Source of the DNA: Phycisphaerales bacterium
Lineage (GTDB): Bacteria > Planctomycetota > Phycisphaerae > Phycisphaerales > UBA1924
Direction of reading: 5' to 3'
Assembly: GCA_021732675.1 (NCBI GenBank)
Contig: JAKFUN010000046.1
Span: 1 to 37,232 of the forward strand
DNA: 37,232 nt
Every line of letters starts with the position of its first letter. Position 1 is the first letter of the stretch. The notes beneath the pieces are model-generated. The model did not search any database and was not told the origin of the DNA. It was given only the letters and a program-made list of their open reading frames with translations. The position numbers and the translations under genes are program-made. Of this stretch, positions 8,614 to 32,944 are shown in pieces.

Positions 8614-9755
8614 GCCTTGGCCCGGTCCTTCAAGATGTCGGTCAGGCCGTCGGCTTGATGATCGGCGTGGTAGCTGCTGCGCACGAGCGGGCCGCTCTCG
8701 ACGACCTTGAAACCGCGGGCCAGCCCCTCGGCCTTATACATGGCAAAGGTGTCGGGGTGGACCCATCGGGCGATCGGCAGGTGATTGCGGGTGGGCTGGA
8801 GGTATTGGCCGATGGTGAGGATGTCGCAGGAGTCGGTGGAGGCGGCGTTCGGTATTCGTGATTCGGCCTTCGTTCTTCCCGAGCTCGCTTCTTGCGAATG
8901 CTGAATGCCCCATGCCGAATGCCGGATCACTTTCGTCGCCGCCTGAATCTCGTCGATCATCCCCAGCACTTCGTCGTCGTGTTCGCCGATGCCGACCATG
9001 ATGCCGGTCTTGGCGACGCCCCCTTGTTCTTTCACGCGTCGCAGCAGTTCCAGCGAGCGATCAAACTTGGCGCTGGGGCGTACCGCGGGGTACATCCGCC
9101 GGATGGTTTCGAGATTGTGATTGATAATATGGGGGCGGGCGTCGATCACCATCTGCAGCGCCGGCCAGTTGCCCTCAAAGTCGGGGATGAGGACTTCGAC
9201 GGACATGGTCGGGCAGGCTTCGCGGGTGCGAACGATGGTCTCGGCCCAGATGGCGGCACCGCCGTCGGAGAGCTCGTCGCGGTTCACGCTGGTGATGACG
9301 ACATGCTTGAGACCCATGAGGGCCAGGCTCTCGGCGACCCGTCGCGGCTCGTCCTTGTCGAGCGAGCTGGGCCGTCCGGTTTTGACGTTGCAGAAGCCGC
9401 AGGCGCGGGTGCAGGTGTCGCCCAGAATCATGATGGTGGCCACGCCCCGGCTCCAGCACTCGCCCATGTTGGGGCAGCCGGCCTCTTCGCACACGGTGTG
9501 CAGGCGATGCTCGGTCATGATGCCCTTAAGGCGTTGATATCCCGGGCCACCGGGGACCTGAGCACGGAGCCACTCGGGCTTTCGCTTGATGAGAAGCTGA
9601 TCGGGGGTTCCGGCCTGGTTATTCAGGACCATGCCGGAGAGGCTGAGTTTGGGAGGATCAATCGTGCGCAGGGGGTCCCCGCCAGCGGGGCGGGGGTGGC
9701 GGGCGAGCGTGCGCTGTACGCTTGGGTCGGCAAAAGCCTTATCGGGAGGCACCAT
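8610..9755 (-). CDS. lipA: Lipoyl synthase with an in-frame repeat-derived insertion
   Basis: This radical-SAM enzyme inserts two sulfurs into protein-bound octanoyl groups to make the lipoyl cofactor of 2-oxoacid dehydrogenases. Both iron-sulfur motifs are present. The auxiliary cluster motif is [12 protein letters not shown] (C89, C94, C100), and the SAM cluster motif is CTRACGFC (C115, C119, C122). Further landmarks are [32 protein letters not shown] and [11 protein letters not shown]. Between the helix DEIQAA and the strand [12 protein letters not shown], where relatives have only two or three residues, about 35 extra residues appear (roughly 273-307: [18 protein letters not shown]), encoded by heptad repeats. 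The start is uncertain: ATG 9755 (MVPPDKAF, coding-like codon use) is used, ATG 9632 (MVLNNQAG) is the alternative, and neither has a clear SD. The last bases overlap the HD-GYP start. Confidence 0.88.
8841..8930. repeat. Degenerate heptad repeat in inverted arrangement, inserted inside lipA
   Basis: Left arm (+ strand): GGCGTTC, GGTATTC, GTGATTC, GGCCTTC (8844-8871). Right arm: GAATGCT, GAATGCC, CCATGCC, GAATGCC, GGATCAC (8896-8930). The right arm is the reverse-complement type of the left (GGCATTC-like), so the element forms a degenerate inverted repeat around a GAGCTC-containing centre (8881-8886). The whole insertion keeps the lipA frame. I recall similar GAATGCC-type heptads giving RHSAFGI/RIPNA-like peptides in planctomycete and verrucomicrobial ORFs, but could not check this. 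Confidence 0.7.
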
Positions 9756-10133
9756 TGGACGCAACTGTAGCGAGCCAGGCCGGGGCGCTTGCGAGGCGGG
9801 CCGGGAAAAGCGAAAGGTGAAATCCGGCGAACACCGAGCCCGCCCAAGCGTATTTCCGTTCAGCCGCATGAAAGGGTGGAACCGCTCGTGTGAAACCGGG
9901 GCCTGCGACTTGAGGGAAGTGCGTGATTTGGTTCGGGACAGGCAAGGGGGCTGGGGCATGAATCGGACCGAAATTCCCGCCCGGGGCTGAACCTGGCCCT
10001 GTCGGTGGGTCGATTCTGACGGTCCGGGAACTACTATGCTGGTCCTGCTGACCGAGGCCTTCCCCAGGATGGGCGGCTTCCGCGTCGCGATGGTGGATTG
10101 ATCGCGGGGATCCCCGCGTGCAAGGAGTCGGGC
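9756..10133. promoter_or_regulatory. Divergent region upstream of the exopolysaccharide locus; 16-bp palindrome at 10103-10118
   Basis: This 378-bp region has no convincing gene. CGCGGGGATCCCCGCG (10103-10118) is a perfect palindrome ending 3 bases before the SD AAGGAG (10122-10127). It could be an operator or, as RNA, a 6-bp stem with GATC loop that limits ribosome access. A TATGCT box (10035-10040) with TTCTGA 15 bp upstream is a weak promoter candidate. Nothing else is recognised. Confidence 0.45.
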
Positions 10134-11660
10134 GTGAGGATGAAGCGATTCGAATCCAAACAGGCCAAAGCTTCGGCGAGTCTATTGCTCGCGGCGAGCG
10201 CGGGGCTCGTCGGTTTGCTCGGGGGATGCACCAATCGGTCCTTCCTTGACCCAAGCATCGACAAGGGCGGCCGCTGGGGGCGCACGCCGACCTCGGTTCC
10301 CATCCTCAATCGCCTGGCAGCCATCGAAGAAGACCAAGGCGAGGTCGTCGAGTTCAGCGACCCGGTCGAAGGCGATCTCAAGCCCCAGCCCTCGCGATAT
10401 CGCCTGGGACAGGGGGACGCGCTGCAGGTCACTGCCTACGACCTCATTCAGCAAGGGGCGGCTGAACGCTTCGATGTCGAAGTCGATTCGCGCGGGTACA
10501 TCGAGATTCCACAGCTTGGTCGCATCCTGGTCGGGGGTCGAACTGCCGAAGAGGCCACCAAGGCGGTCGAAGAAGCCATGACCCGGCTGGTGACCAACCC
10601 GCTGGCGTCGGTGGTGGCGACGGCGCAGCGGCAGCAGACCTTCAACATTGTGGGCGGGGTCGAGCGCCCCGGGCCTTACTTCATCCCCCGCTCCAACTAT
10701 CGAGTGCTCGAAGGGTTGACTGCGGGTGGACGCTTTGACGAGGCCATCGAAGAGGTGTACGTCATTCGTCAGGTCGCGCTCAACGACGAGGTATTGGGGG
10801 GGGACCAGCCAGCAAGTGCCGCACCCAGCGAGCCCAAGACCCAGGGCGGGCCGGACGGCAAGAAGCTCATTGACATCATCGATCAGCTTGCCCCCGAACC
10901 CGTCAAGCCGCCCGTCACCCAGCCGACAGGAGGGCAACCCGGCGTGCTGGGCGCGAGGCGGGGGCAACCGGCTGGCAAGCCGCGGGCGCCGGTGGTGAAT
11001 CTTCCCGACGACGCTCCGGCATCGGTCGCCCAGGAAGCGCCGGCTCCGATCGGGCCCGAGGGGCGCTGGGTCTTTTTGAACGGCAAGTGGGTGCAGGTGT
11101 CGAGCATGCCAGCCCCCAAGTCCAGCGAGGGAAAGTCGGACAGTTTGCCCGCTCCGACCGAGACGATGATCACCCAGCGAATCATTCGGATCCCGGTCCG
11201 GGACCTGCTGGCGGGGAAGCAATCGGTGAACGTGGTGCTTCGCCCCGGCGATGTGCTGCGGGTGCCCCAGGCTCCGTCCGGGAACGTGTACATCGCGGGT
11301 CAGGTGCAAAGGCCCGGGGTCTTCGCGCTGCCGGGACAGGGTGGCGGGTTGACCCTGACCCGCGCGATCACCGCGGCGGGCGGGCTGAGCAGCATTGCGA
11401 TCGCCAGCCGCGTGGATTTGGTGCGTATGACGGGGAAAGACCGCCAATCCACGATCATGCTCGACCTTGGCGCGATCAACAACGGCGAACAGCCCGATCT
11501 GTGGCTCAAACCCAATGACCATGTGAACGTGGGGTCAAACTTCTGGGCACTGCCCTTGGCGGTTTTTCGCAACGGGTTTCGTGCCAGCTACGGCTTCGGC
11601 TTTGTGCTTGACCGGAACATCGCGTCGGACATCTTCGGGGTCCAGCGCAGCAGCAACTAA
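10134..11660 (+). CDS. Polysaccharide export outer-membrane lipoprotein (OPX/Wza-like)
   Basis: The 508-residue product has an N-terminal signal with a lipobox (LVGLLGGC, lipidated Cys about residue 32). A Poly_export domain follows ([15 protein letters not shown] to [19 protein letters not shown], roughly 85-155). Two SLBB-like segments follow ([30 protein letters not shown], and later [20 protein letters not shown]). Between them is a long Pro/Ala/Gly-rich linker with [13 protein letters not shown] proteins form the periplasmic/outer-membrane exit of capsule or exopolysaccharide. The start GTG 10134 is set by AAGGAG six bases upstream; ATG 10140 and ATG 10098 are alternatives. It is the first gene of the locus, preceded by the palindrome at 10103-10118. 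Confidence 0.9.
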
Positions 11661-11812
11661 CCAGTCGGAGCGGCGGCGCAGGTTGGCGGCGGGTCGGATT
11701 TTGGAGCGGGGAGAGAAAGGGAGTGCGGGCGAGGTCGCAGGGGGTGCTTGTGGGCATCGGGTTATCGGTGCCGAAAGAGGACGGTGGGCGTTACGGGAGG
11801 CGGGATCGAACC

Positions 11813-12769
11813 ATGTCGACCATGAGCGAACGAAAACCTATCGCCGGCTCGCTCCAGCGGACGCAAGTTTCGCGAGTGTCGGCGTGGACCTGGGTACGGT
11901 TCTCGCTCCTGGTCGCGGCTTTTGCCGGGCTCTTTTTTCGCTGGCTGATCGCTCAGAAAGATTTCAGCCTGGCCAACGTGCAGGACTGGGGGCACACCCT
12001 GATCATGCCCGCGATTGGGGGGTATCTGCTTTGGTCCAGGCGGGCCGAGCTGGCCCGCAACACTCCGGAGACCTTTTGGCCCGGACTCCTCCCGCTGCTG
12101 CTTGGCATCCTGAGTTATTTTTACTTCATCGTGGGCGTGACCAACCACATGCTCCAGGGTTTCGCGATGGTGCTCTCGCTCGCGGGACTGACGCTCTTTG
12201 TGGGTGGGCCCAAGATCTTTCGCTTGGCCTTCATTCCCATTGCGCTGCTGGTCTTCAGCGTGACGATCTCTGACCAGATCATGGAAAAGGTCACGTTTCC
12301 ACTCCAGTTGATCTCGTCAAAGGGTGCGTGGTTCATGCTGCGGATCATCAGCCTGCCCGGCGACTGGTTTCTGGTGGATCTGGATGGCAACACGCTGAAG
12401 ATCTTTAATCGCACCAAGGGCGCGTGGAACGCGATGGGTGTGGCGGAGGCGTGCTCGGGGCTGCGGATGTTGGTGGCGTTTGTGGCGCTGGCCGCCATCG
12501 TTGGGGTGCTTTCCTGCCGCCAGTGGTGGCAGCGAATTACGCTGCTTCTCCTCGCGGCTCCGGTGGCAATCCTCTTGAACATCTTCCGGGTCACTCTGCT
12601 GGGCGTCCTGAGTTTGTGGGATGTCAACTTCGCTTCGGGGGATGCGCACATCCTGATCGGGACACTGCTGCTGGTGCCCGGGCTGGCGTTGTTCCTGGGA
12701 ATCGTGTGGGCGCTCAACCGGGCGGTGGGCGAAGATGAACCGGCCCAGAGCGCCAAGGTGAAAGCATGA
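11813..12769 (+). CDS. Exosortase (Xrt/EpsH family transpeptidase)
   Basis: The 318-residue polytopic membrane protein has about eight hydrophobic segments. The exosortase catalytic triad is visible: Cys in AEACSGLRML (about residue 212), Arg in LLNIFRVTLLG (about 255) and His in DAHILIGTLLL (about 279). Exosortases cleave and re-attach proteins with PEP-CTERM-like tails, usually next to exopolysaccharide genes, as here. The start at 11813 (MSTMSERK) follows a GGGAGG 12 bases upstream; GTG 11723 is less likely. The 150 bases before it are G-rich and without another gene. The stop overlaps the next start as ATGA. The subfamily could not be assigned. Confidence 0.92.
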   Translation: MSTMSERKPIAGSLQRTQVSRVSAWTWVRFSLLVAAFAGLFFRWLIAQKDFSLANVQDWGHTLIMPAIGGYLLWSRRAELARNTPETFWPGLLPLLLGILSYFYFIVGVTNHMLQGFAMVLSLAGLTLFVGGPKIFRLAFIPIALLVFSVTISDQIMEKVTFPLQLISSKGAWFMLRIISLPGDWFLVDLDGNTLKIFNRTKGAWNAMGVAEACSGLRMLVAFVALAAIVGVLSCRQWWQRITLLLLAAPVAILLNIFRVTLLGVLSLWDVNFASGDAHILIGTLLLVPGLALFLGIVWALNRAVGEDEPAQSAKVKA

Positions 12770-13632
12770 GCACCAAGCTGGCAAAGTTTGCGGGGTTTGG
12801 CGTGGCGATGGCGGTGCTGCTGGGCTCTTCTTTGGGGATCGTGTCGGCGATCTCGGCCTTCAAGCTCACCTTGCGCAAAAAGCCAATCTATCCAGAGTCT
12901 GGCTTGCTGCTCACGTCTCTACCCACCGAAACCGCCTCGTGGGTGCGGGTGGGTTCGGATCGCAAGGAGTCTCCTGAGGTCGAAGAGGTGCTGGGGACCA
13001 AGAACTACATCTCTCGCTTGTACAAAGAGAAGACCCCCAAGGACAAGTCGCGTCCGATCGTGCTCGACCTGCATGTGGCGTACTACACGGGCAAGATCGA
13101 CACCGTCCCGCATGTGCCGGATCGGTGCTTTGTGGGTGGGGGTATGCAGATCGGAGATATTCTGGGGGATCTGCCCCTGCCTTTGGATCGATCGCGCTGG
13201 CGCGAGGACACGAGCGTGCCGCCCGATCTGAAGGGGCGGATCTTTGTGACGCGCAGCGCCAACGGGCTCTACCCCAGGCTGCCTCGCGACCCGGGCGAGA
13301 TCAGGCTGCGGACGATGCGATTTTTGCAGAAGGACGGGCCCGAGATCTTCGCGGGGTACTTCTTCATCGCCAATGGCGGAGCGGTGGCCAAGGCCGAGGA
13401 GGTCCGCCTCCTGGCCTTTGATCTGAGTTCCACGTACGCGTACTACGCGAAGGTACAGGTGACGACCTCGACAGTCGCCAACGGCGAAGAAATGACCCGT
13501 GTGAGCGCGAGCTTGCTGGATGAGCTGATGGGTGATGTGATGATGTGCCTGCCCGACTGGGTGGCAGTTCAGCAGGGGGAGTATCCCCCCAAGGACGCAG
13601 GCGAAACAGACGGACACGTGAGTGGGAAGTAA
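12766..13632 (+). CDS. Exosortase-associated EpsI-type protein
   Basis: The 288-residue product has one N-terminal membrane anchor (FGVAMAVLLGSSLGIVSAISAF) and a periplasmic domain. The stretch YYTGKIDTVPHVPDRCFVGGG resembles the conserved core of EpsI/DUF3485 proteins, which are found fused to or just after exosortases. The ATGA overlap with the exosortase stop implies co-translation. The exact biochemical role of EpsI proteins is not established; the tie to the exosortase is by position. The tail after VAVQQGEYPPK is acidic and likely flexible. Confidence 0.8.
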   Translation: MSTKLAKFAGFGVAMAVLLGSSLGIVSAISAFKLTLRKKPIYPESGLLLTSLPTETASWVRVGSDRKESPEVEEVLGTKNYISRLYKEKTPKDKSRPIVLDLHVAYYTGKIDTVPHVPDRCFVGGGMQIGDILGDLPLPLDRSRWREDTSVPPDLKGRIFVTRSANGLYPRLPRDPGEIRLRTMRFLQKDGPEIFAGYFFIANGGAVAKAEEVRLLAFDLSSTYAYYAKVQVTTSTVANGEEMTRVSASLLDELMGDVMMCLPDWVAVQQGEYPPKDAGETDGHVSGK

Positions 13633-13692: not shown

Positions 13693-16600
13693 ATGGCTTC
13701 GAAGGTGAATGTGAAGTTTGTGGCATCGCTGGGCGCGGGGTTGGTCGTGCTCGTCGGCGGGCTGGGGCTGGCGACCTACTTCCTGCTGGTGAACAGCGCA
13801 GCCGACCTGGCCAAGAAGGGCGACCAGGCGATGTCCAAGGAGGACTACGCCTCGGCGGCCGTCTACTACTCGAAGGCGGTGGACAAGGAACGCACGAACA
13901 TCGCGTACCTGGGCAAGTGGCGCGAGTCGATGGCCAAGAAGGTGCCGGATACCCGCCAGAAGTTCTCCGAGGCGTATCGCAACTGGCTGGGGATCGCCCG
14001 TCAGATGGCGATCGTGCAGCGCGACAACCTGACCGACCAGTTGGCGTACGCAGAGATCGTGCGCCAACAGTACCTGGTAGGGCCATTCAACCGCGACGCG
14101 AACACGCAGGCGCTGAATGAGATGGAAACGATGATCGGATACTACTCGGGCAAGCCCGAGGGGCCATGGGAGAAGCTGCGAAAGGTTCGAGGGATCGCGC
14201 GGCTACGCGCGGTAAACGAGGCGGCGGACGCCAAGGAGCAGCAGTGGGCAGACGCGCTGGCGGACCTCCAAGCCGCGGCCAAGGCCGACCCGGCGGATTC
14301 GGAGACGGCGCTCACGTTGGTCTCGTATTACGGGGTGCAGGCGCAGCGGGCGGAGCGGCGCGGCGAGCAGGAAAAGAGCGACGAGTTGCTGGCCACGGCG
14401 CGAAAGGTGGAAGAGGACTTTATCGCCCGCAACCCTGAAGACGCGACGATGCGTCTGTCACTGATTCGGCTAGATTTGGATTTGGCGATCCGCGACTTTG
14501 CGAAGCAGAAGGACGGCGGAGGGGACGCGATCGCGGCTGGGCAGGCGTTTACGGAACGCAATCGCCCCCGCTTTGAAGAGGCCACGGCCAAGGCGCTGGC
14601 ACTGGAGCCGGGCAAGGTGGATGTCGGGCTGCTCACGCTCCATCGCCAGATCGAGGAGACGGTTTCCGCGGCCAGTAAGCTCAGCCACACCGAAGCGCTG
14701 CTGGAGCATGCCCTGGCGACCCGGCCCGATGATGCGGGGCTGCTGATGTTCAAGGCCGACCTGGCGGGAGACCGGAGCGATTTTCCCCTGGCGATCGCGA
14801 CGTCGGAACGGATCATCGCGCTTCCCGGGTTGCCCGTGGGGCTTCCAGGCTCGGCGCTCTTCTCGCAGAAGGACGTCAGCCGCTTTTTGCGGGTGCTGTG
14901 GGGTGTGAAGCAGTTGGGGGCAGCGCTGCCGGCGGATCGGGACGGGATCATGCAGCGGGTCCGCGCGTATCGGCAGGATCTGGCGTCGAATGAATCGCAG
15001 GACTCGCCGCGGCTGGCCCTGGCTGACGCCTGGGTTGCCCAGGCGGAGGAGCAGTGGGACAAAGCCGACCGGCTGCTGGATCAGCTGGAGCGAACCGGCA
15101 AGGTGAGCGACCCCGATACGCTGCTCCTGTGGGCCAACGTGGCCCTGAAGCGCGGGCAGACGGGTAAGGCCGAGGATCGCCTGCGCCAAGCGCTGGCCGC
15201 GTCGCCGAGCAACGTGACGGCGGCGGTCGCGCTGGCCGAGCTGAACATCCGTCTCGAGAATCCTCGGGAAGCGGTGGTGATTTATGAGAACCTGCTGCGT
15301 GTCCAGCCGGGCAACAAAGAGCTGGCCAGCCGCCTGCAGGAAGCCAAGGCCCGGGCGAATCTGGGGACGTCGAGCGACCCGGTGCTCCAGGCGTTGATCG
15401 ATGCCGACCGCTTGAGCAAGCCCCGGCCCGGCGTCGCCAACCCGGCGGATGAGGTTCTCAAGCACCTGACCGCCGCGATGAAGAAACTCCCCCCGGATGA
15501 ACGCCTCTATGGGGCGTTGGCGGGGGCGTATCTGAACGTTGGCGATCGTGACAACGCCTTGGCCACGGTTCAGGCGGCCCTGGCGAAGTTCCCGCAGTCG
15601 GAGCGATTGAAGGCGTTTGAGCTCCAGCTATCGAGCAAGGACCCGGTGGCGGCCCAGCTCATCCTGATTGACCAGTCCAAGAACAGCGATCTTGACAAGG
15701 CCTTGGCCAGGTTCTCGCTGCTCAAGGCGGCACCCGGCCGGCAGGCCGACGCCCGGGCCGAGGTCGCGAAACTGCAGGCCTTGGCGCCGAATGATGCCCG
15801 CGTGGTTGAAGTCCTCTTCCTCGACGCCTTGGAGCGTGGGGAGCTGGACAAGGCGGCGACGTTCGCGGCCAAGGCGACAGAGATCGACGCCGACAACCTG
15901 GGTGGCAAGACCTTCCAGGCCCGCCTGCTTTCGACCAAGAAAGACTTTGCGGGTGCCCTGAAGCTGATGCAGGATGTGATCGGGCAGGGTGGTGCCCAGC
16001 CCGAGACCTGGCGCTTGCTCGGACGTTTCCAGGCCCAGGTGGGTCGCTCGGCCGACGCGGCGAACAGCTTTCGCGAAGCCCTCAAGCAGCGCCCCGACGA
16101 CGTGGGCGCGATCAATGACCTGATCGACGCCCTTGTTTCGAATGGCCAGCGTGAGCAGGCATTGCTGGTGGCCCGCGAGAGCCAAAAGTTCCCCACGGTG
16201 GGGTCCAGCCGCGAGTTTTCGGAGCGTTGGCTGGGGCTGGAGCGGGACATCGGCAATCGCGAGGTGGCGCTGATGCGTCGCGAGCAGATCGCCAAGGCCG
16301 ATCCGGCGAACCGAGGCAACCTGGAGGCACTCGCCGGGCTGTATCTGAACCTCGGGCAGTTTGACAAAGCGCGGACCACGATCGACAAGATCCGGGCCGG
16401 GGGAGATGATCTGAACAGCGTCCAGCTCGACGCCCAGTATTACTGGAGCAAGCGCGAGACGGAAAAGGCCCTGAAACTCTTCCAGGATTACGCGAACGCC
16501 ATGCAGGGTCGCGACAAGTTGGTGGGGCAACTAGCGCTGGCCTCGTTTCTGCTGTCGCACGATCTGGCCGACGACGCCATCAAGGTGCTGGAAGCGGCCC

Positions 16601-18315
16601 GGGCACTCCAAGACCCCAAGACGCTTGAAGCGGATCGCTCCATCGCCGAAACGACCTTCCGTCTCGGGCGATACGACGAATCGGTAGTCGCGCTCAAGCG
16701 GGTGATCGAGGTCAATGGCGATGGCGAAGACCACGTCTTTCGCAAGCGCCTGGTGGAGACCCTGACCCGCAAGGGCGACTTCGCCGAGGCCGAGAAGGAA
16801 CTCAGCCCGCTCAGCTCGGCCAAGGAGCCGGACGCGGTAAGCCTTCTCCTGCTGGCAGAGATCAAGATCGGCGCCAAGGACACCAAGGGGGCCCGAGATG
16901 TGCTGAACCGCGCGGTGGGCCGATTCCCCACGGACTCAGCGGTCTTCGTGAAGCGCGGCCAGTTCCTGATGAACGATCAAACGACCCTGCGCGACGCCAT
17001 CGAAGACTTCACCAAAGCGATCCAGCTCTCCCCCAACTCCTGGCAGGTCTATCGCCTACGGGCCAGCGCGTATGGGACCCAGCAAGGAAGCGAGAGCGAC
17101 CGGGCCCGGGCGGTGGACAACGCCATCGCCGACTGGCGCAAGGCCGTCCAGCTCAACCCCGGCGATGACTCACAGCTTAATGACTTTGTGTACCGGCTCA
17201 TCACCCTGGGCCGGGATCAGGACGCCGAGGCGATGGCCGACGAGGCGTTGGCCGGTCGTCCGCAGGACGCGAACGTGCTGCGGAACATGGGGATTGTGTT
17301 CTCCCAGCTTCGCAAGAATCGCAGTGCTGCGAAGTACTTCCAGCAGGCCTTTACAATCGACAACAACGACGGCATCGCCCAGCGACTGCTGGATGCGTTG
17401 CTGGCAGCCGACGTAGAGGACGTTACGACGGCGCAGAGGGTTCTGGCGGCGCTCGGGAAGCCGAAGGTGACGGGCAATCCGGGCTTCTTGCTGGCATCGG
17501 CGAAGGTGCAGATGAAGCTGGGCAACGCGCGCGAGGCGGGCCAATCGGCGATTCAGTCGTTGCAGTTGCTGAACCCCGCGATGCCCAACCAGATCCTCTC
17601 GTGGCACAGCGACATGAGGCAGCTCATCCCGCTGGTCACCAAGCACATTGATTTCCTCGATGACGTGATCAAGCGGGGAACGGTGCCCCAGGCCAATGAA
17701 TGGCTGGTGTATCTGCGCAACATCATGGCGGCCAACGAGCCGGCGCTGCGCGAGACGGCGATCAAGCAACTGGGGGACCTGGCGGCCCGGGCGCAAGGTA
17801 AGGAAGCACGCCAGTTCGCCCGGCGCGGGCACGGGGCGGTGCTGTTTGGGGAGAAGCGGTATCAAGAGGCTGCGGACTCGATGCGTGACGGGCTGAAGGA
17901 CTTCCCGGAGGACCCGGAGCTGCTGAACAACTACTCGTTCTTGCTGGCGAAGTACCTGGATCGCCCCGCCGACGCGATGCCGCTGGCTGAGAAGCTCGAG
18001 GCGATCTTCAAGGACGCGGCGTCACCCCAGGCCGAGATTTTGGACTCGATCGGTTTTGTGTATCTCTCGAACCGGCAGTTCGAGAAGGCCGCGGGCGTGC
18101 TTCGAAACGCCCGGAATCTTGCGACCTCCGCCCGGGTGGCGCTGAGCGCGTCGATCCACCTTGCCCAGGCGCAGCTGGAGTTGGGCAAGAAGGAAGAGGC
18201 GATCCGCCTCACGGAAGATGCCGAGAAGTTGATGAACGAGACGAAGGAAGAGATTCCGGATAAGGACGAGATCAAGGCGGACCTTGCCGCCCTGAAGGCC
18301 AAACTGGTCAAATAG
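13693..18315 (+). CDS. Giant membrane-anchored TPR protein of the exopolysaccharide/exosortase locus
   Basis: The 1540-residue product starts with a single transmembrane anchor (LGAGLVVLVGGLGLATYFLLV, about 13-33). The rest is an almost continuous array of tetratricopeptide-like helical pairs, for example GQTGKAEDRLRQALAASPSNVTAAVALAELNIRLENPREAVVIYENLLRV split over several repeats, and KRYQEAADSMRDGLKDFP near the C-terminus. It is comparable to the large TPR proteins (PrsT-like) found with PEP-CTERM/exosortase gene sets, though far longer. It is probably a periplasmic scaffold for biosynthesis, export or sorting partners; this is inference. GGAGAG lies just upstream of the ATG. It is preceded by a 60-bp gap with a small TCCGG/CCGGA stem, and codon use matches its neighbours. 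Confidence 0.88.
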   Translation: MASKVNVKFVASLGAGLVVLVGGLGLATYFLLVNSAADLAKKGDQAMSKEDYASAAVYYSKAVDKERTNIAYLGKWRESMAKKVPDTRQKFSEAYRNWLGIARQMAIVQRDNLTDQLAYAEIVRQQYLVGPFNRDANTQALNEMETMIGYYSGKPEGPWEKLRKVRGIARLRAVNEAADAKEQQWADALADLQAAAKADPADSETALTLVSYYGVQAQRAERRGEQEKSDELLATARKVEEDFIARNPEDATMRLSLIRLDLDLAIRDFAKQKDGGGDAIAAGQAFTERNRPRFEEATAKALALEPGKVDVGLLTLHRQIEETVSAASKLSHTEALLEHALATRPDDAGLLMFKADLAGDRSDFPLAIATSERIIALPGLPVGLPGSALFSQKDVSRFLRVLWGVKQLGAALPADRDGIMQRVRAYRQDLASNESQDSPRLALADAWVAQAEEQWDKADRLLDQLERTGKVSDPDTLLLWANVALKRGQTGKAEDRLRQALAASPSNVTAAVALAELNIRLENPREAVVIYENLLRVQPGNKELASRLQEAKARANLGTSSDPVLQALIDADRLSKPRPGVANPADEVLKHLTAAMKKLPPDERLYGALAGAYLNVGDRDNALATVQAALAKFPQSERLKAFELQLSSKDPVAAQLILIDQSKNSDLDKALARFSLLKAAPGRQADARAEVAKLQALAPNDARVVEVLFLDALERGELDKAATFAAKATEIDADNLGGKTFQARLLSTKKDFAGALKLMQDVIGQGGAQPETWRLLGRFQAQVGRSADAANSFREALKQRPDDVGAINDLIDALVSNGQREQALLVARESQKFPTVGSSREFSERWLGLERDIGNREVALMRREQIAKADPANRGNLEALAGLYLNLGQFDKARTTIDKIRAGGDDLNSVQLDAQYYWSKRETEKALKLFQDYANAMQGRDKLVGQLALASFLLSHDLADDAIKVLEAARALQDPKTLEADRSIAETTFRLGRYDESVVALKRVIEVNGDGEDHVFRKRLVETLTRKGDFAEAEKELSPLSSAKEPDAVSLLLLAEIKIGAKDTKGARDVLNRAVGRFPTDSAVFVKRGQFLMNDQTTLRDAIEDFTKAIQLSPNSWQVYRLRASAYGTQQGSESDRARAVDNAIADWRKAVQLNPGDDSQLNDFVYRLITLGRDQDAEAMADEALAGRPQDANVLRNMGIVFSQLRKNRSAAKYFQQAFTIDNNDGIAQRLLDALLAADVEDVTTAQRVLAALGKPKVTGNPGFLLASAKVQMKLGNAREAGQSAIQSLQLLNPAMPNQILSWHSDMRQLIPLVTKHIDFLDDVIKRGTVPQANEWLVYLRNIMAANEPALRETAIKQLGDLAARAQGKEARQFARRGHGAVLFGEKRYQEAADSMRDGLKDFPEDPELLNNYSFLLAKYLDRPADAMPLAEKLEAIFKDAASPQAEILDSIGFVYLSNRQFEKAAGVLRNARNLATSARVALSASIHLAQAQLELGKKEEAIRLTEDAEKLMNETKEEIPDKDEIKADLAALKAKLVK

Positions 18316-18446: not shown

Positions 18447-20684
18447 ATGACGATCGTTCCAGCAAGTCCAGCTGCTCAGGTGTCGCCCAATCGCTCGATG
18501 GCGCCGATGCCCCCTGCGCCTGCGGCGGCGGCGGGGAGCACGATTGATCCGGTGAAGCTGCTGCTTCGGTACAAGTGGATTTTGGCAGCGGCGCTGATCG
18601 TGGGGGCGGTGGTGGGCACGGTGGCGAACTACGTACTCGCGTCGGTGGCTCCGCGCTGGAGCTCGACGGTGATTTTCGAGTGCAAGCCCCAGACCCAGAG
18701 CATCACCGAAATCGCGGGTACCGGTCAGGCCGAGGAAATGCAGCGGTTCATGTTGACGCAGATCAGCATCATCCGGCAGGACCGGGTGCTGCAGCGGGTT
18801 GTCGAGGACTCGGGGGTGCTGACCAAGCGCGCCCCCAAGTGGAGCTCGCAGTTTTCGACCTCCGGGGGAGTTGGTGCAGAGGGGGGGTTCGACACGGTCG
18901 GCGCGCTTAAGGATCTGCGGCGGATCGTCGGGGCGGGTATCGTGTCCGGGACCAACCTGGTGCAGGTCTCGGTCTCCAACCGGGACAAGGACGAAGCCAC
19001 CGAACTGGTGGGGATGGTCAAGGAAAAGTACGTCGCCTTCCTCAACGAACGCGGCCAGGCGGGGTTTGACGACAAGATCGCCGGTCTCAAGAGCCAGATT
19101 GATCGCTTCGAGAGCGATATGAAGATCGAGGTCGGTAAGCGCCAAGCGTTGATCCAGTCCAAGGGGCTGGATTCGGTGGACGATCGGCAGTCGACCACCA
19201 AGTTCGAGCTGACCCAGGTCACGGACAAGCTGCTCAACGCGGCCCAGACGCTTGAGGCCCAGCGCACCACACTGAAGCAACTCGAAGCTGAGTTTATGAG
19301 CCCTGGAGGGATCGTCTACGGGGCGGAACTCCGGGCCGAGGCCGAGCGCGACCCTCAGGTACTGGACCTGCGGGGCCAATCACAGCGAGTGCAGTCGCAG
19401 ATCGAAGCGATGCTGGTCAGCGGGGTGAAACGCGACCATCGCCAGGTGGTGCAGCTTCAGAGCCAGCTCGAGGGGCTGGAGTCGACCCTCACGCAAAAAC
19501 TCAGCGAAGTGCTCAAGAAGAGCTTTGAGGCTCAGCTCGACAGCACCCGCAAGAGCATCGCCCAGTATGAGGCTGTCGAACAATCGTGGCAGATCAAGAG
19601 CAAGGAGCTCTCCGATCGGTTGGTCGACCTCTCCAAAGCCCAGCAGGACCTTAACGACTTCGCGACCAAGATCTCGGGCTTGTCGGAGAGCCGGGCAAAG
19701 AGCAAGCAGGAGATGGAAAACCTGATTGCCCAGAAGGGCTCGGCGGACGTGAACCGCGTGGTGCTGGTGCAGGACCAGCGGGCACCGACGGATCGGTCGT
19801 TCCCGCAGTTGAAGATTCTGCTTCCCGCCGGGGCGATCCTGTTTCTGGGGATCTGCGTGGGTGTGATCGTGCTGGTGGAGCTGCTTGACACCCGGGTCAA
19901 GAGCCCGTCGGACGTGGCGATCATGCCTCGTGTGCGCCTGGTTGGGTGGGTGCCGGACGGCGGCGAGGACCCGGCGGGTCAGGGAGCGATCGAGACCGCG
20001 TTCAGAGAGCGCCCACGCGGGGTGGTGGCGGAGAGTTTTCGCCAGATTCGCGGGTCGATCGCCAAGCGGCTCCACGCCGGCGGGCACCGATCGCTGCTGG
20101 TCGTATCGGCGATGCCTCAAGCGGGCGCCACATCGGTGGCGGCGAACCTCGCCTTCTCGTTCGCTTCTGCGGACAAGCGGGTGTTGCTGATTGACGCCAA
20201 CTTCCGCCGCCCGGCGCTGCACCGGGTCTTCAGCCTGCAAGAATCGCCCGGACTGGCCGACGTGCTGGCCTCCAAGCCCGACGAGCGGGCCCATCGCCTG
20301 GGCGAAGTGACGCAAGCAACGACGACCCCGAGCCTGGACCTGTTGACCGCAGGCACCAAAGACCAGCGGATCTTCGAACGCCTGGCGACCGACGCGATGA
20401 GCGAGCTGCTCGCCCTGGTCAAGTCGATGTATGACATCGTGATCATCGACGCGGCTCCTGTGGTCGTCAGTGGCGACGCGATGGCCCTGGCCAATCGCTG
20501 CGATTGTTCAGTCATGGTGGTTCGGGCCATGGCGGACCGGCGCGGGATGGTCGCGCGAATCAAAAACGAGCTGGGCGAAGCCCGAGGCGAGTTCCTGGGG
20601 ATCATCGTAAACGGAGTCAAGGCCTCCAGCGGCGGCTACATGAAGCGCAACATCCAGACGGCCCACGAATACCAGAACCCCTAA
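18447..20684 (+). CDS. Wzc-like polysaccharide copolymerase with degenerate P-loop kinase domain
   Basis: The 745-residue product has a Pro/Ala-rich start, transmembrane helix 1 (WILAAALIVGAVVGTVANYVLA, about 45-66) and a Wzz-type periplasmic part with long coiled coils (about 200-450). Transmembrane helix 2 follows (LLPAGAILFLGICVGVIVLVELL, about 455-480), then a cytoplasmic CpsD/BY-kinase-like domain. In that domain the Walker A region reads SAMPQAGATSVAANLA (about 552-567): the usual EGKT/S is AGAT, so the phosphate-binding lysine is missing. Walker A' reads LLIDANFRRP (Asp to Asn), while Walker B (IVIIDAAPV) is kept. There is no C-terminal tyrosine cluster, only isolated Tyr residues. It probably acts in chain-length control without tyrosine-kinase activity. 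It is followed 12 bp later by the epimerase gene. Confidence 0.88.
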   Translation: MTIVPASPAAQVSPNRSMAPMPPAPAAAAGSTIDPVKLLLRYKWILAAALIVGAVVGTVANYVLASVAPRWSSTVIFECKPQTQSITEIAGTGQAEEMQRFMLTQISIIRQDRVLQRVVEDSGVLTKRAPKWSSQFSTSGGVGAEGGFDTVGALKDLRRIVGAGIVSGTNLVQVSVSNRDKDEATELVGMVKEKYVAFLNERGQAGFDDKIAGLKSQIDRFESDMKIEVGKRQALIQSKGLDSVDDRQSTTKFELTQVTDKLLNAAQTLEAQRTTLKQLEAEFMSPGGIVYGAELRAEAERDPQVLDLRGQSQRVQSQIEAMLVSGVKRDHRQVVQLQSQLEGLESTLTQKLSEVLKKSFEAQLDSTRKSIAQYEAVEQSWQIKSKELSDRLVDLSKAQQDLNDFATKISGLSESRAKSKQEMENLIAQKGSADVNRVVLVQDQRAPTDRSFPQLKILLPAGAILFLGICVGVIVLVELLDTRVKSPSDVAIMPRVRLVGWVPDGGEDPAGQGAIETAFRERPRGVVAESFRQIRGSIAKRLHAGGHRSLLVVSAMPQAGATSVAANLAFSFASADKRVLLIDANFRRPALHRVFSLQESPGLADVLASKPDERAHRLGEVTQATTTPSLDLLTAGTKDQRIFERLATDAMSELLALVKSMYDIVIIDAAPVVVSGDAMALANRCDCSVMVVRAMADRRGMVARIKNELGEARGEFLGIIVNGVKASSGGYMKRNIQTAHEYQNP

Positions 20685-20696: not shown

Positions 20697-21734
20697 GTGG
20701 GACACACCGAACAGAGAACCTCTGCCGATGGGGGCACACGGCGCGCTGGGCGTCGGGTGCTCGTCAGTGGCGGCGCGGGGTTTATCGGATCCCACCTGGT
20801 CGATCTGCTGCTGGCCCGGGGGGATGAGGTCACGGTGGTGGACAATCTCTCCACCGGACGCCGTGCCAACCTGCCCGCGTCGCACGCACGCCTCCGATTT
20901 GTGGAGGCGGACCTAGGTCAGGCCTTGGGCGCCTTTGGCAAGGGGGAGCTCTTCGACCAGATCTACCACCTCGCGGCGGCCGTCGGGGTCAAGCTGGTCA
21001 TCGACGACCCGATCCGGTCCATCGATACCAATGTCGAGGAGACGTCGGAGCTGCTTCGCTTCGCCGTCACCCACGGCCCGGGGGGCGGAGGCTCGCGAGT
21101 ATTGATCGCCTCCAGCTCCGAGGTGTACGGCAAGGCCTCGCACAGCCCCTTCAGCGAAGGCGATGACGTTGTCTATGGCCCCACCTCGGTGGCCCGCTGG
21201 TCATACGCCTGCTCCAAAGCGATCGATGAGTACCTGGCGCTGGCGTATCACCGAAAGAAGGGCCTTGGGGTCACGGTCGCGCGGTTCTTCAACACCGTCG
21301 GGCCAAGGCAGGTCGGTGAGTACGGAATGGTCGTCCCCCGGTTTGTGGGGTGGGCTCTGGCTGGGGCGCCCCTCGAGGTGTATGGCGAGGGTTTGCAGTC
21401 GCGTTGCTTTTGCGACGTTCGGGATGTCGCGGGGGTCTTGCCGGCGATGCTGGAGCGGACCGAGACGGCGGGGGGCATATTCAACGTCGGGTCGGATCAA
21501 CCAATCACAATCCGGGCGTTGGCCGAACTGGTCATCAAGACGCTGCGAAGTTCGTCCGAGATCCGCACGATTCCGTATGCTGAGGCGTACGCTGCGGGCT
21601 TCGAGGATTTGCAGCAAAGGCGGCCCGCGCTGACGCGGATTCGCGAGGCGGTCGGTTTCGCGCCGCGATTTGAGCTTGAGGAGACGGTGCGTGATGTGGC
21701 GGCATGGATGCGCCTGCATGGAGAGAAGCGTTGA
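20697..21734 (+). CDS. NAD-dependent nucleotide-sugar epimerase/dehydratase
   Basis: This is a 345-residue extended short-chain dehydrogenase. The Rossmann motif is VLVSGGAGFIGSH near the N-terminus, with NLSTG after beta-2 and YHLAA. The catalytic pair sits in SYACSK (YxxxK), preceded by SSSEVYG, and FFNTVGPRQ, RCFCDVRDVA and FNVGSDQPI are sugar-nucleotide site motifs. It most resembles UDP-glucose 4-epimerase/UDP-glucuronate decarboxylase-type enzymes; the exact substrate cannot be read. It presumably supplies an activated sugar to the polysaccharide. The start GTG 20697 is 12 bp after the wzc-like stop. The stop overlaps the next gene's TTG start. Confidence 0.85.
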   Translation: MGHTEQRTSADGGTRRAGRRVLVSGGAGFIGSHLVDLLLARGDEVTVVDNLSTGRRANLPASHARLRFVEADLGQALGAFGKGELFDQIYHLAAAVGVKLVIDDPIRSIDTNVEETSELLRFAVTHGPGGGGSRVLIASSSEVYGKASHSPFSEGDDVVYGPTSVARWSYACSKAIDEYLALAYHRKKGLGVTVARFFNTVGPRQVGEYGMVVPRFVGWALAGAPLEVYGEGLQSRCFCDVRDVAGVLPAMLERTETAGGIFNVGSDQPITIRALAELVIKTLRSSSEIRTIPYAEAYAAGFEDLQQRRPALTRIREAVGFAPRFELEETVRDVAAWMRLHGEKR

Positions 21735-23167
21735 CCGGACTACCCGACATCCTGATCGCTGCCATGAAGGCAACGGGCGTGATCGCCTTGGGGGTTGAGG
21801 GATCAGGCGATGCCTCGACCGTTGAACCGACGCGGCTGTCGATCGTCGAGGGATACGTGGGTGTTCTCATGGCGGCCTTTTTGGTCACGCTCTGTGCAAC
21901 CCCCATCATGCGACGCGTCGCCGTCGCTCAGGGCATCATCGATCGCCCAAACGAAGCCCGCAAGGTTCATCGCATCCCGATCGCCTACCTCGGTGGGGTG
22001 GCGGTCTACTTGGGGATCATCGCAGGGATCTTTTATAGCGTGCTGGGCGTCAAGATTGACGGACTGGTGGACTGGCACACCTCCAAGTTCCATGAGCTTG
22101 GGTCGTTTTTTCTGCCGATCCCGCCTTCGATCGTGCTTGGGATGACCGTGATCATGCTGGTGGGGCTGATCGATGACGTGACGGGGATCAGCCCGCGCGT
22201 GAAGATCGGCGGGCAGCTTTTCGCGGCGGCCGCAATGGCTGTGGACAACGTCGGCGTCAAGCTGGCTGCGGGGATTTTGATCCCAGTCGCGCACAGCCTG
22301 GGGATTACCCCCACCGTTCTGCCGGATACTTCGAGCACGCTGCTCTTTCACATCCCGCTGCCATTCACGATTTTGGGGTCCTCGGGGATCCCTGTGGACG
22401 TCGTCTATTGGGTTGGGACGGCGATCATCGCGGTGGCCGTGCTGGGGTTGTGCAACGCCTCAAACCTGATCGACGGACTCGATGGGCTGCTCAGTGGGAC
22501 GACCGCGATCTCGGCGATGGGTCTGTTGGTGGTGGCGTTGGGGCTGGCGGTGATCGACGACGGCCCGCGTGATTCGCAGCGGATCATTTTGTGCCTGGCG
22601 TTGCTGGGGGCGTGCCTGGGGTTCCTGCCTCACAACTTCAACCCGGCAAACATATTTTTGGGCGACGCCGGATCGCTGCTGCTGGGGTACGTCACGTGCG
22701 TGATCATCCTGATGATGGGCGACACCGGCAAAACCTGGCTGGTGGCGGCCGGGCTAATGATCTATGCCGTGCCGATCATTGACACGACACTCGCGATCGT
22801 GCGGCGGAAGATGGAAGGCAAACCGATCTCCGCTCCGGACGACCAGCATCTGCACCACATGCTCAAGCGGGCGTTGGGAGTGAAGGGGGCGGTCTTCGCG
22901 TTGTACGGGATCGCCGCGACGTGTGCGGTGCTCGGAGCGAGCATCACGCTGATCCGGGCCCGGGGGGTGTACTTCCTGGCGCTGCTGCTGGTCTCCTACG
23001 TGGGCGTCACGGCGATCAAGATCGCCCGCAAACGGGCTATCGAAGCCCAGGCGGCAGAGTACGAAGCCAAGCGGGCTGCGGGGCTGGCTGGGCCTGCCGC
23101 GGCAACCGGAGCTGGCGGGGGCGCAGTCGCGGGGAGCCCAGCCAACGCCAGGTCGACCAACGCCTAA
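21731..23167 (+). CDS. WecA/MraY-type polyprenyl-phosphate sugar-1-phosphate transferase
   Basis: This multi-pass membrane enzyme (about 478 residues) transfers a sugar-1-phosphate from a UDP-sugar to undecaprenyl phosphate, the first lipid-linked step of polysaccharide synthesis. Motifs are IIDRPNEARKVHRIPIAYLGG, DDVTGISPRVKIGGQ, NLIDGLDGLLSG, HNFNPANIFLGDAGS and HLHHMLKRALG; the last is WecA-like rather than MraY. The start is unsettled. TTG 21731 overlaps the upstream stop as TTGA and has GGAGAG five bases before it. ATG 21704 would overlap the epimerase by 31 bp, and ATG 21764 is also possible. The cytoplasmic Ala/Gly-rich tail is poorly conserved in such proteins. It is the last gene of the exopolysaccharide run. 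Confidence 0.9.
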   Translation: MTGLPDILIAAMKATGVIALGVEGSGDASTVEPTRLSIVEGYVGVLMAAFLVTLCATPIMRRVAVAQGIIDRPNEARKVHRIPIAYLGGVAVYLGIIAGIFYSVLGVKIDGLVDWHTSKFHELGSFFLPIPPSIVLGMTVIMLVGLIDDVTGISPRVKIGGQLFAAAAMAVDNVGVKLAAGILIPVAHSLGITPTVLPDTSSTLLFHIPLPFTILGSSGIPVDVVYWVGTAIIAVAVLGLCNASNLIDGLDGLLSGTTAISAMGLLVVALGLAVIDDGPRDSQRIILCLALLGACLGFLPHNFNPANIFLGDAGSLLLGYVTCVIILMMGDTGKTWLVAAGLMIYAVPIIDTTLAIVRRKMEGKPISAPDDQHLHHMLKRALGVKGAVFALYGIAATCAVLGASITLIRARGVYFLALLLVSYVGVTAIKIARKRAIEAQAAEYEAKRAAGLAGPAAATGAGGGAVAGSPANARSTNA

Positions 23168-24264: not shown

Positions 24265-25722
24265 ATGCACGGAAACGATCACGTTCACGGTCAAGCCTGG
24301 TGGTACGGCCCGCGCCTTTGGGCGATGAGTGCGCTGGCGGGCGGTGGTCTGGGCTTGGGGCTGGCTTGGCTGGTGCCGGGGGGGTACGCGGATGGGGCGG
24401 CGGTGGCGCCGCGGGTCCCGGTGTGGCTGATCGCGCCGTTTGCGCTCCTCTTGATGTCGATTGCGATCCTCCCGCTGGTGAGCGCGAAGTGGTGGCACCG
24501 ACATTTTCCGGATGTCGCATTCTTCCTGGGCACATTGGTGGTGGCGTACTTCCTCACGGCGTATTCGCGGCCCGGATACGAGCAAGGGCTGAGCTACGGC
24601 AAGGCCAAGCTCATGCACGCGGGGATCGAGTATGTCTCATTCATCGCGCTGATCGGCGGGTTGTATGTGGTCTCGGGGGGGATTCTGGTATCGCTGCGCG
24701 GGCGGGCGACCCCTTTGGTGAACACGGCGCTGCTGGGGCTGGGGGCGGTGCTCGCGAACATAGTCGGCACGACCGGGGCGTCGGTGCTGCTCATTCGCCC
24801 GTTCATGAAGTCCAACGACGGTCGCCTGCGGCCTTTGCATGTGGTTTTTTTCATCTTCATAGTCAGCAACTGCGGGGGATCGCTGACGCCGATCGGCGAC
24901 CCGCCCTTGTACCTGGGGTTCCTCAAGGGCGTGCCGTTTTTCTGGGTGCTGGAAAACATGTGGTACAACTGGCTGCTGACCATCGGGCTGCTGCTGGGGC
25001 TGTTTTTTGCCTTTGATCGATGGGTGGCCCGAAAGATCGCGTCAAGCGCCGATCCGGTCACTGCTGAACCGGGGGTTTCGATCGGGATTCATGGGCACAC
25101 TGGCGTGATATGCCTGCTGCTGATGGTCGCCGGGGTCTTCATTGATCCGGTGATCTACGCTCGCACGAGCTTGCCTCACCTCCCATACGGGGCGGTTTTC
25201 CAGATCTGCGTGGCGGCGGTGGCGCACCGGTTGGCGCCCAAGGACATTCTTTCGGCCAACGAGTTTTCGTTCTTCCCCGTCAAGGAAGTCGGGCTGCTTT
25301 TCATCGGTATCTTCGCGACGATGGTTCCAGCGTTAGCCTATCTCTCGGCCAATGGCCAGAGCTTGGGAATCTCCTCCCCCACTGCCTACTACTTCGCGGC
25401 CGGGGGCCTGAGCGCCGTGCTCGACAACGCCCCGACCTACCTCAACTTCCTGCAACTCGCGTTGGTCCCCGAAGAGATCACCAAGGAGAGCTTGCGGGTG
25501 TGGCTTTCCACCGAGTCGGGAGTGAGGATCTTGGACGCGATCTCGTGCGGGGCGGTCTACTTCGGGGCGATGACGTACATCGGCAACGGGCCCAACTTCA
25601 TGGTGCGCTCGATCGCCGAGAGCTATGGGGTCAAGATGCCCAGCTTTTTCGGGTACGTTGGCTGGGCGCTGCTGCTGCTTCTGCCGGTGCTGGTGGTGCA
25701 ATGGCTGGTCTTCATCCGATGA
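24265..25722 (+). CDS. Sodium:proton antiporter-like transporter (NhaD/CitMHS-type)
   Basis: This 485-residue inner-membrane protein has about 12 hydrophobic segments (for example LIAPFALLLMSIAILPLVS, VVFFIFIVSNCGGSLTPIGDPPLYLGFLKGVPFFW and LLFIGIFATMVPALAYLS). The GDPPLYLGF and LDNAPTYLNF stretches are half-repeat signatures of the ion-transporter superfamily that holds NhaD and citrate-metal symporters. A role in Na+/H+ exchange is the usual annotation; the true ion is not provable from sequence. An N-terminal HGNDHVHGQ is His-rich. ATG 24265 is preferred over TTG 24244, which would fall in the -10 region. Confidence 0.85.
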   Translation: MHGNDHVHGQAWWYGPRLWAMSALAGGGLGLGLAWLVPGGYADGAAVAPRVPVWLIAPFALLLMSIAILPLVSAKWWHRHFPDVAFFLGTLVVAYFLTAYSRPGYEQGLSYGKAKLMHAGIEYVSFIALIGGLYVVSGGILVSLRGRATPLVNTALLGLGAVLANIVGTTGASVLLIRPFMKSNDGRLRPLHVVFFIFIVSNCGGSLTPIGDPPLYLGFLKGVPFFWVLENMWYNWLLTIGLLLGLFFAFDRWVARKIASSADPVTAEPGVSIGIHGHTGVICLLLMVAGVFIDPVIYARTSLPHLPYGAVFQICVAAVAHRLAPKDILSANEFSFFPVKEVGLLFIGIFATMVPALAYLSANGQSLGISSPTAYYFAAGGLSAVLDNAPTYLNFLQLALVPEEITKESLRVWLSTESGVRILDAISCGAVYFGAMTYIGNGPNFMVRSIAESYGVKMPSFFGYVGWALLLLLPVLVVQWLVFIR

Positions 25723-25759
25723 AGTGGAAGCGCGGAGGGGCGTTCCCTCCCCCACCACC

Positions 25760-27454
25760 ATGACCACCCGGCCCGACACCGTGACCAATCCCCCATCCAC
25801 GCCGCCGGGCCCGAACGACTCGGATCACGTCTCCACCGGCATGCTTGGGGGGGCGGTGCGGACCGTGTCTGGGTTGACGCTGGTGAGCCGCTTCGCGGGG
25901 CTGGCTCGCGACGTGATCACCGCGCGGCTGCTCGGAGACGACGTGCTGGGCTCGGCGTTTCGGGCGGCGTACGCCTTGCCGAACCTGTTTCGGCGGCTGT
26001 TTGGCGAGGGGGCCCTATCCGCGGCTTTCTTGCCCGAATACACCTTGCTGCGCCGCGACGACCCGCAGATCGCCAGCCAGCTAGCCACCTTGGTCGTCAG
26101 GCTCATCACCCTGCTCACCGGCGGAATCACGCTGGTCATGATGCTGGGGTTCGCGGGGGCAATTTTGGTTTTGCCGCAGGACCCGGACCGGGCCTTGAGT
26201 TTCAAGCTCATGATCCTGATGTTGCCGATGATGCCCGCGGTCTGTCTGACCGCGATTCTGGGCGGGATGCTCCAGGCCCACGGCAGATTTGCAGCTCCAG
26301 CGGCGGCCCCGATCCTGCTCAACCTCTTTCAGATCGTGGCCGGGCTGGCGTTTTACTTCGGGTGGGCGCAGGGGCGCGTCACCGCGGCGTATTCGATCGG
26401 GGTGGCGGCGGTGCTGGCGAGTGCCGCCCAGGTCTTGTGGTCTTGGTGGGCGCTGCGAGGGATGGTGGAGTGGGGCCGGGCGGGCCACGCAGCGAATGTC
26501 CATGGGCGGGCGGTGCTGAAGCGTTTCATTCCCGCCATGATCGGCCTGGGGACCCTCCAACTCAACACCACCATGGACATGGTGATCGCGATGTGGCCGA
26601 CCTATGTTGGCCCCAAGATCTTGGGGTTTGACGTGCCCCTGGACAAGAGCTCGAACGCGATCCTCAGCTACACCCAGACGATCTATCAGTTTCCGCTGGG
26701 CGTTTTCGGGATCGCGGTGGCGACCGCTGTCTTCCCCATGCTTTCGCGCAGCGCCGATCACCCGCACGAGTTTGTCGCGACGCTGCGGCGGGGATTGCGA
26801 CTCAGCCTCTTCATCGGCCTGCCCGCCAGCGTTGGACTCTTGCTCATCCGGCACGATCTGGTACACATGATCTTCGGGGGTTCGGGCAAGCACGGCTTTT
26901 CGCAGGAAGGTTTGGCGCGGGCGGCGAGCGTGCTGGCCGGCTTTGCGCCCGGGGTGTGGGCGTACTCGCTCAATCACGTTTGGACGCGGGCGTTTTATGC
27001 GAGAGGGGACACGCGGACGCCGATGCGTCTGGCGATGGCGATGGTGGCGCTCAACCTCACGCTGAATGTCACGATGATTTGGTGGCTTCGAGAGGCGGGG
27101 CTCGCGTGGGCGACGGCGATCGCCGCGACCGTGCAGTGCCTGGTGCTGGGGCTTTGGTGTCGGCAAAAATTGGGTATCGAAGCACTGGACGCAGCGACCT
27201 GGAGGGCTTTTGTGCGGATCGGTTTGGCCAGCGCAACGATGGGTGCATGCGTGTGGGTGGGGAACATGCTGATCCCGAGCACGGGGTGGTGGGCGAGTTG
27301 GGGCGGACACGCGGCTCGCTGCGCCGCCGGGGTGACCATCGGCGGGGGCGTGTATGCCTTGGCCGCGTTGGGCTGGCGAGCACCTGAGATCCGCTGGTTG
27401 CTCCGTCGCAGCCCAGGCGGGGGCGGGGGACCGAGCGGGATGAGCTTTGAGTAG
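25760..27454 (+). CDS. murJ: Lipid II flippase MurJ (MviN)
   Basis: The 564-residue product has about 14 transmembrane segments and moves lipid-linked peptidoglycan precursors across the inner membrane. Hallmarks are VSRFAGLARDVITARLLG, FRAAYALPNLFRRLFGEGALSAAFLPEY, FQIVAGLAFYFGWA and ARAFYARGDTRTPM. The N-terminal 25 residues are a Pro/Thr/Asp-rich extension (MTTRPDTVTNPPSTPPGPND), longer than usual. The start is ATG 25760 after the antiporter stop at 25722; a longer reading from 25625 would overlap the antiporter and encode a Cys/Trp-rich out-of-character peptide. A polysaccharide flippase role alongside the WecA-like enzyme cannot be excluded, but the motifs fit MurJ. Confidence 0.92.
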   Translation: MTTRPDTVTNPPSTPPGPNDSDHVSTGMLGGAVRTVSGLTLVSRFAGLARDVITARLLGDDVLGSAFRAAYALPNLFRRLFGEGALSAAFLPEYTLLRRDDPQIASQLATLVVRLITLLTGGITLVMMLGFAGAILVLPQDPDRALSFKLMILMLPMMPAVCLTAILGGMLQAHGRFAAPAAAPILLNLFQIVAGLAFYFGWAQGRVTAAYSIGVAAVLASAAQVLWSWWALRGMVEWGRAGHAANVHGRAVLKRFIPAMIGLGTLQLNTTMDMVIAMWPTYVGPKILGFDVPLDKSSNAILSYTQTIYQFPLGVFGIAVATAVFPMLSRSADHPHEFVATLRRGLRLSLFIGLPASVGLLLIRHDLVHMIFGGSGKHGFSQEGLARAASVLAGFAPGVWAYSLNHVWTRAFYARGDTRTPMRLAMAMVALNLTLNVTMIWWLREAGLAWATAIAATVQCLVLGLWCRQKLGIEALDAATWRAFVRIGLASATMGACVWVGNMLIPSTGWWASWGGHAARCAAGVTIGGGVYALAALGWRAPEIRWLLRRSPGGGGGPSGMSFE

Positions 27455-27995: not shown

Positions 27996-28165
27996 CCTCT
28001 CCTACAAAGATAAGGGCTGGAGCCGCGCCGACTGTGGGCAGAACAGGCGTTGGGCCGTTGCCCCTTTGATACGACCGGCCCGGAAGATTGCTGGCGGGCG
28101 CACGCCGCGCCTTGCTCCCTATTCCTGATCGCACTGATCGACCTCCACCCATCCGGAGCATTCCT

Positions 28166-32932: not shown

Positions 32933-32944
32933 AGGAATTCACTG

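Follow-up and report, generated by a model that had tools for sequence, protein, structure and literature searches.

A Wzc-type co-polymerase whose fused kinase-fold domain lacks the Walker A lysine throughout a planctomycete order is probably a pseudokinase

The stretch of DNA analysed here (the window, 37,232 nucleotides) belongs to a draft genome that is 71% complete; a scan of genome contigs gave distant relatives only. By domain matches, its forward strand carries genes for a Wza-like polysaccharide export protein (Poly_export, SLBB; 10098..11660, also assigned by synteny), an exosortase of the EpsH family (11723..12769), an EpsI-like protein (DUF3485; 12766..13632), a large PrsT-like TPR protein (13693..18315), the Wzc-like co-polymerase studied here (18447..20684), an NAD-dependent sugar epimerase/dehydratase (20697..21734) and a WecA/MraY-like polyprenyl-phosphate sugar-phosphate transferase (21704..23167). 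With the exosortase, EpsI-like, PrsT-like and export genes lying beside the co-polymerase, this is an exosortase-linked exopolysaccharide locus. Among the window genes scanned we found no obvious Wzx or Wzy gene; a MurJ-family flippase gene lies downstream (25625-27454), and an apparent efflux set follows at 28088-35739 (membrane-fusion protein, AcrB-type pump, heavy-metal-binding-domain protein and outer membrane efflux protein). On the reverse strand, 7975-9959 holds an HD-GYP gene and a gene for a 449-aa lipoyl-synthase-like radical SAM protein (models have about 300 aa). For counts, the window's family is called f1, its order comprises f1-f6, and the class is the wider sampled group. In all 17 f1 loci examined wza is flanked by the radical SAM gene, and in 7 of them by the HD-GYP gene.

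The co-polymerase gene is an open reading frame without internal stops that encodes 745 aa. Its AlphaFold2 model (mean pLDDT 91.8) has two membrane helices, at aa 43-67 (18573..18647, positioned as in Wzc) and aa 455-480 (19809..19886), a periplasmic Wzz-like region and a fused cytoplasmic kinase-fold domain, which is the PCP-2a architecture. Foldseek matched full-length Wzc (E 4e-30), and for the kinase-fold domain CapA1B1 (TM 0.90, 2.4 A) and CapAB K55M (TM 0.88). The protein scores under the cut-off of Pfam Wzz alone and below that of the XrtA-associated tyrosine autokinase TIGR03018 (116.3 bits, cut-off 230.65), and it passes the NCBIfam tyrosine autokinase domain TIGR01007 (122.2 bits, cut-off 108.05), a family name that would mislabel it as a kinase.

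We aligned the kinase-fold domain (residues 481-743) with the solved CapAB, BceF, Etk, VpsO and Wzc. First, the Walker A segment MPQAGATS (aa 556-563, 20112..20135) reads P-Q-A-G-A-T-S where this type of tyrosine kinase has P-G-x-G-K-T/S, and the catalytic lysine of CapB, BceF and Wzc falls on Ala561. Since its codon, GCC (20127-20129), is three base changes away from either lysine codon, a single base error does not explain it. Second, in Walker A' (LLIDANFRRP, 20184..20213) the first Asp is kept as Asp583 and the second is replaced by Asn585, giving D-A-N instead of D-x-D; this Asn is present in 56/56 order proteins of our tree. Third, Walker B (IVIIDAAP, 20436..20459) retains the hydrophobic-D-x-x-P pattern, with Asp668 invariant in 97 sequences, and the P-loop keeps a normal strand-helix in the model. 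These three results agree with a preliminary description of the DNA, which had noted a P-loop without lysine, an Asn in Walker A' and an otherwise intact fold. The same description saw no terminal tyrosine cluster; a cluster is indeed absent, order tails having mostly two tyrosines, but those two, Tyr731 and Tyr742 of the tail GGYMKRNIQTAHEY (20631..20672, predicted helix at aa 731-743), are conserved in 56/56. The oligomerisation motif ExxRxxR is present as ESFRQIR (aa 529-535, 20031..20051), with E529 and R532 in 56/56. The domain thus has the fold of a BY-kinase without the Walker A lysine and the second A' Asp, as in BY pseudokinases, but it is fused in one chain rather than being a stand-alone protein working with a PCP-2 that lacks the domain.

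A match to the Wzc-like protein was found in all 107 well-completed family genomes searched and in 243/244 order genomes. Among 118 order genomes whose P-loop we inspected, none had the lysine: residue 561 was Ala in 42, Thr in 38, Ser in 18, Val in 11, Gly in 4, Asn in 3 and Cys in 2. Within the order, at least 17 substitutions of one small residue for another have occurred at this position, next to an invariant Gly560 and a residue 562 that is Thr or Ser in every case. A single lysine-bearing copy of this orthologue type turned up in the order (L176, G008:C79), on a short contig from an f1 genome that is listed with 4% contamination and also has a lysine-less copy. It groups with family f22 (support 100), and the contig has probably strayed in, with horizontal transfer as the alternative.

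By comparing the lysine-bearing, arginine-bearing and lysine-less forms in raw counts that ignore shared ancestry, we found that further residues are missing along with the lysine. At 559, an acidic residue is present in 89-100% of lysine- and arginine-bearing forms but in 0% of the lysine-less ones, Thr553 is gone from most order proteins, and a basic residue at 492 is found in 0% of the order versus 89% in the comparison. Mean tail tyrosines go from 5.6 in outgroup and paralogues to 4.1 (Lys), 3.8 (Arg), 3.4 (f9) and 2.7 (order). In contrast, Gly560, T/S562, Asn567, Asp583, Asp668, Arg587, E529, R532, Tyr731 and Tyr742 are kept in the order. We then placed the equivalents of the ADP contacts listed for BceF (PMC8394532), with numbering transferred by structure-sequence alignment: P503 is kept in 96% of the order, P557 in 88%, T/S562 in 100%, R/K588 in 95%, R/K693 in 93% and N722 in 96%. 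For P557, T/S562, R588, R693 and N722, conservation equals or exceeds that of lysine-bearing orthologues, and among the contacts that could be placed the lysine alone is missing. What is retained belongs to the ring contact and to the part of the pocket that faces metal and base; what is lost serves phosphate transfer. Mean identity is 42% in the kinase-fold domain versus 24% in the periplasmic part, and dN/dS of the kinase-fold domain in close lysine-less pairs is 0.04-0.15, a rough estimate as synonymous distance is about 1 in some pairs. The domain is thus under strong purifying selection and more tightly constrained than the periplasmic part. A compensating lysine elsewhere in the domain was also sought. 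Basic residues that mark the order and are mostly missing from lysine-bearing orthologues occur at just three positions, 483, 540 and 713, all of them outside the motifs.

To place these changes in the class, a tree of 126 proteins was built with the motif columns left out; it holds a class-wide orthologue group of 100 proteins and 26 outgroup or paralogous ones. The 56 order proteins form one clade (SH-aLRT 100) nested in the class-wide group (98), in which lysine-bearing (28), arginine-bearing (10) and other lysine-less members (f9, f13) also fall. Orthology is further supported by synteny, because the gene order Wza-exosortase-EpsI-PrsT-Wzc is kept in lysine-bearing, Arg and lysine-less members and in most class loci; the GGY...Y tail is likewise common to group members. 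Lysine is present in 26/26 outgroup and paralogous proteins. Wider sampling added lysine-less members in f9 (19/19), a single one in f11 (Thr) and a single one in f19 (Ala), the latter (L259, G498) reading DGATT and carrying IACSP in place of the ID-x-x-P of Walker B, a further step of decay. The wider tree requires at least four changes from lysine to a small residue and eight changes among Lys, Arg and small residues; one shared origin of the order and f9 losses was not rejected (AU p 0.68), hence we count four losses rather than five. The Walker A' Asn is found in all lysine-less and arginine-bearing and, with one exception, in all lysine-bearing orthologues, whereas D-x-D is kept in 26/26 paralogues and outgroup proteins. 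From this distribution, the Asn appears older than the lysine losses.

Together, these data lead us to propose, with reasonable confidence, that the gene encodes a Wzc-type (PCP-2a) co-polymerase belonging to an exosortase-linked locus, and that the BY-kinase-fold domain fused to it is a pseudokinase. Several observations support this: the loss of lysine is fixed in the order, recurrent and joined by loss of the acid at 559 and of tail tyrosines, while the ring-forming elements stay. Two laboratory mutants indicate what such a protein could do. Wzc K540M forms stable unphosphorylated octamers with the tail in the neighbour's active site and still binds ADP-Mg (PMC8285477), and CapB K55M is an octamer that binds ADP-Mg (PMC3795738). 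From these octamers, and from ring and pocket residues being kept where phosphate-transfer residues are lost, we infer a pseudokinase ring. The tail tyrosines would not be phosphorylated by their own domain; rings would be held by ExxRxxR and the short GGY...Y tail, without being dismantled through tyrosine phosphorylation, much as in the engineered K540M octamer. Some input other than a tyrosine kinase cycle would then set the timing of chain growth and export. In the accepted model for E. coli, polysaccharide is made and exported only if Wzc alternates between its phosphorylated and unphosphorylated forms. Given this need for cycling, a permanently unphosphorylated ring would require another route of disassembly. 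The ring may be permanent, or a partner may open it. The structural, non-kinase co-polymerase proposed in the preliminary description is therefore the reading that these inferences favour, with a phosphatase gene in family f2 (see below) counting against it. In addition, the Walker B Asp, T/S562, Arg588, Arg693, Asn722, Tyr731 and Tyr742 are kept beyond the needs of a pure scaffold.

Given the pocket residues that are retained, the domain may still bind ADP or ATP with Mg, as a structural ligand or as a switch. The second option, in which ADP or ATP binding sets ring assembly independently of phosphorylation, refines the pseudokinase reading rather than opposing it, and we hold it as a tentative possibility. 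It is consistent with the ADP-Mg bound by both mutants (PMC8285477, PMC3795738) and with the retained Mg- and adenine-side residues, but another role for these residues, in keeping the fold or the neighbour's tail in place, would also explain their retention. In view of the bound ADP-Mg and the retained residues, to say that ATP binding has been lost goes too far.

We consider it improbable that the domain retains tyrosine kinase activity through a non-canonical P-loop, in which main-chain amides, T/S562 and arginines 587/588 would hold the phosphates instead of lysine. Retention of all other ADP-contact equivalents and of Tyr731/Tyr742 would fit such an enzyme, but mutating K540 abolishes phosphorylation of Wzc (PMC8285477), residue 561 drifts freely among small residues without a basic replacement in the clade, the order-enriched basic positions 483, 540 and 713 are distant in sequence from the pocket, and tail tyrosines are fewer. 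Phosphatases are a further point for activity. The low-molecular-weight (LMW) phosphatase family is present in all 60 genomes tested, so its presence alone does not discriminate kinase loss. Strong matches to a canonical LMW tyrosine phosphatase (>=115 bits) were found in 19/19 f1, 4/4 f2, 1/2 f5, 2/5 f6 and 0/30 other class members, a distribution that runs opposite to a simple story of loss; the window's own incomplete genome has a weak match only. Moreover, in 9/20 f2 genomes (L281-L300) an LMW tyrosine phosphatase with the motif VCxGNICRSP is encoded in the wzc operon, downstream of the WecA-like sugar-phosphate transferase gene (e.g. L281:2905-3333), and this is the observation that fits a pseudokinase least well. 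No LMW tyrosine phosphatase was found near wzc in the f1 loci, the window or the other class loci examined.

It is very unlikely that a second BY-kinase in the same cell phosphorylates the protein in trans. A second TIGR01007 match above 60 bits is present in 35/81 f1 genomes, and 20/20 of the second copies fetched from them have GK(T/S), hence the lysine, together with D-x-D, which also indicates that the lysine loss is specific to the Wzc-like orthologue. However, the other 46/81 have no such match and all hold the lysine-less protein, 45 of these 46 being at least 92% complete, which rules out a trans kinase as a general answer. As a separate observation, the second BY-kinase-like subfamily in f1 (L221-L240) has intact DGK(T/S) and D-x-D, mostly without a tyrosine-rich tail.

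Control of chain length by c-di-GMP through the upstream HD-GYP gene, suggested in the preliminary description, is even harder to credit. The HD-GYP protein itself is genuine (7975-8613, reverse strand, with a true HHExxDGxGYP motif), but its gene is divergent to the locus and forms a separate unit beside the lipoyl-synthase-like gene. An HD-GYP gene lies within 19 kb upstream in the 7/17 f1 loci mentioned above and in 0/3 loci outside f1, and no PilZ or other receptor domain was found in the Wzc-like protein or the annotated operon genes. Last, an isolated mutation, sequencing error or decaying gene, as an incomplete draft genome might invite one to suspect, is ruled out for practical purposes by the P-loop alignment across 118 genomes, the low dN/dS and the intact reading frame.

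How does the pseudokinase reading compare with known systems? With Wzc of E. coli the protein shares domain order, two membrane helices, kinase fold, ExxRxxR and Walker B, and it lacks the lysine as K540M does. Here, however, the loss is natural and fixed, Walker A' is D-x-N, two conserved tail tyrosines replace the cluster, and identity to full-length Wzc is at most 16%. The likeness to CapB K55M and CapB1 of Staphylococcus aureus lies in the fold (TM 0.88-0.90) and, for K55M, in the ADP-Mg-binding octamer, although K55M is engineered and the CapB kinase is separate from its membrane partner. By analogy, we read the Wzc-like protein as a natural counterpart of these two laboratory mutants. 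BY pseudokinases as such are already known: EcpK of Myxococcus xanthus, described in 2025, supports exopolysaccharide synthesis (PMC12004946), and like HfsB of Caulobacter it has a BY-kinase fold without key catalytic residues, serves a PCP-2 and has a predicted C-terminal helix. Unlike the present fused domain, EcpK and HfsB are stand-alone proteins, each paired with a PCP-2 that has no such domain. The losses also go further in EcpK, where all three Walker motifs have disappeared; in our protein they are confined to the lysine, the acidic residue near it and the second A' Asp. Fused PCP-2 pseudokinase variants including SMc01795 are named from Cuthbertson et al. alongside HfsB (PMC12004946). 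These are also single polypeptides with a kinase-like domain judged inactive, but they come from Alphaproteobacteria and Vibrio and are likened to our protein by description, not by sequence. The proteins of the XrtA-associated tyrosine autokinase family share an exosortase-linked locus and a related domain, the score lying below that family's cut-off. What is new is that a fused pseudokinase with near-minimal inactivation is fixed in an entire order and that Lys, Arg and lysine-less states are preserved in one syntenic gene. In the open-licence papers searched we found no biochemistry of this Wzc-like family, no work on planctomycete Wzc kinases and no order-wide fused pseudokinase.

For the class as a whole, we give an even chance to a scenario in which the Wzc-type line gave up its dependence on tyrosine phosphorylation once the A' Asp had become Asn, after which the lysine would have been lost repeatedly (to small residues in at least four lineages, to Arg in others), leaving an order whose polysaccharide is exported by means of a ring that is never phosphorylated and that may carry ADP or ATP. 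In automatic annotation such proteins receive the name "tyrosine autokinase" (TIGR01007), which reflects their fold and not their catalytic residues. A whole order keeps, under selection, a Wzc that is close to intact and yet should not be able to run the phosphorylation cycle. This offers natural material for testing if a kinase cycle is required at all, and for telling residues that hold the ring from those that transfer phosphate.
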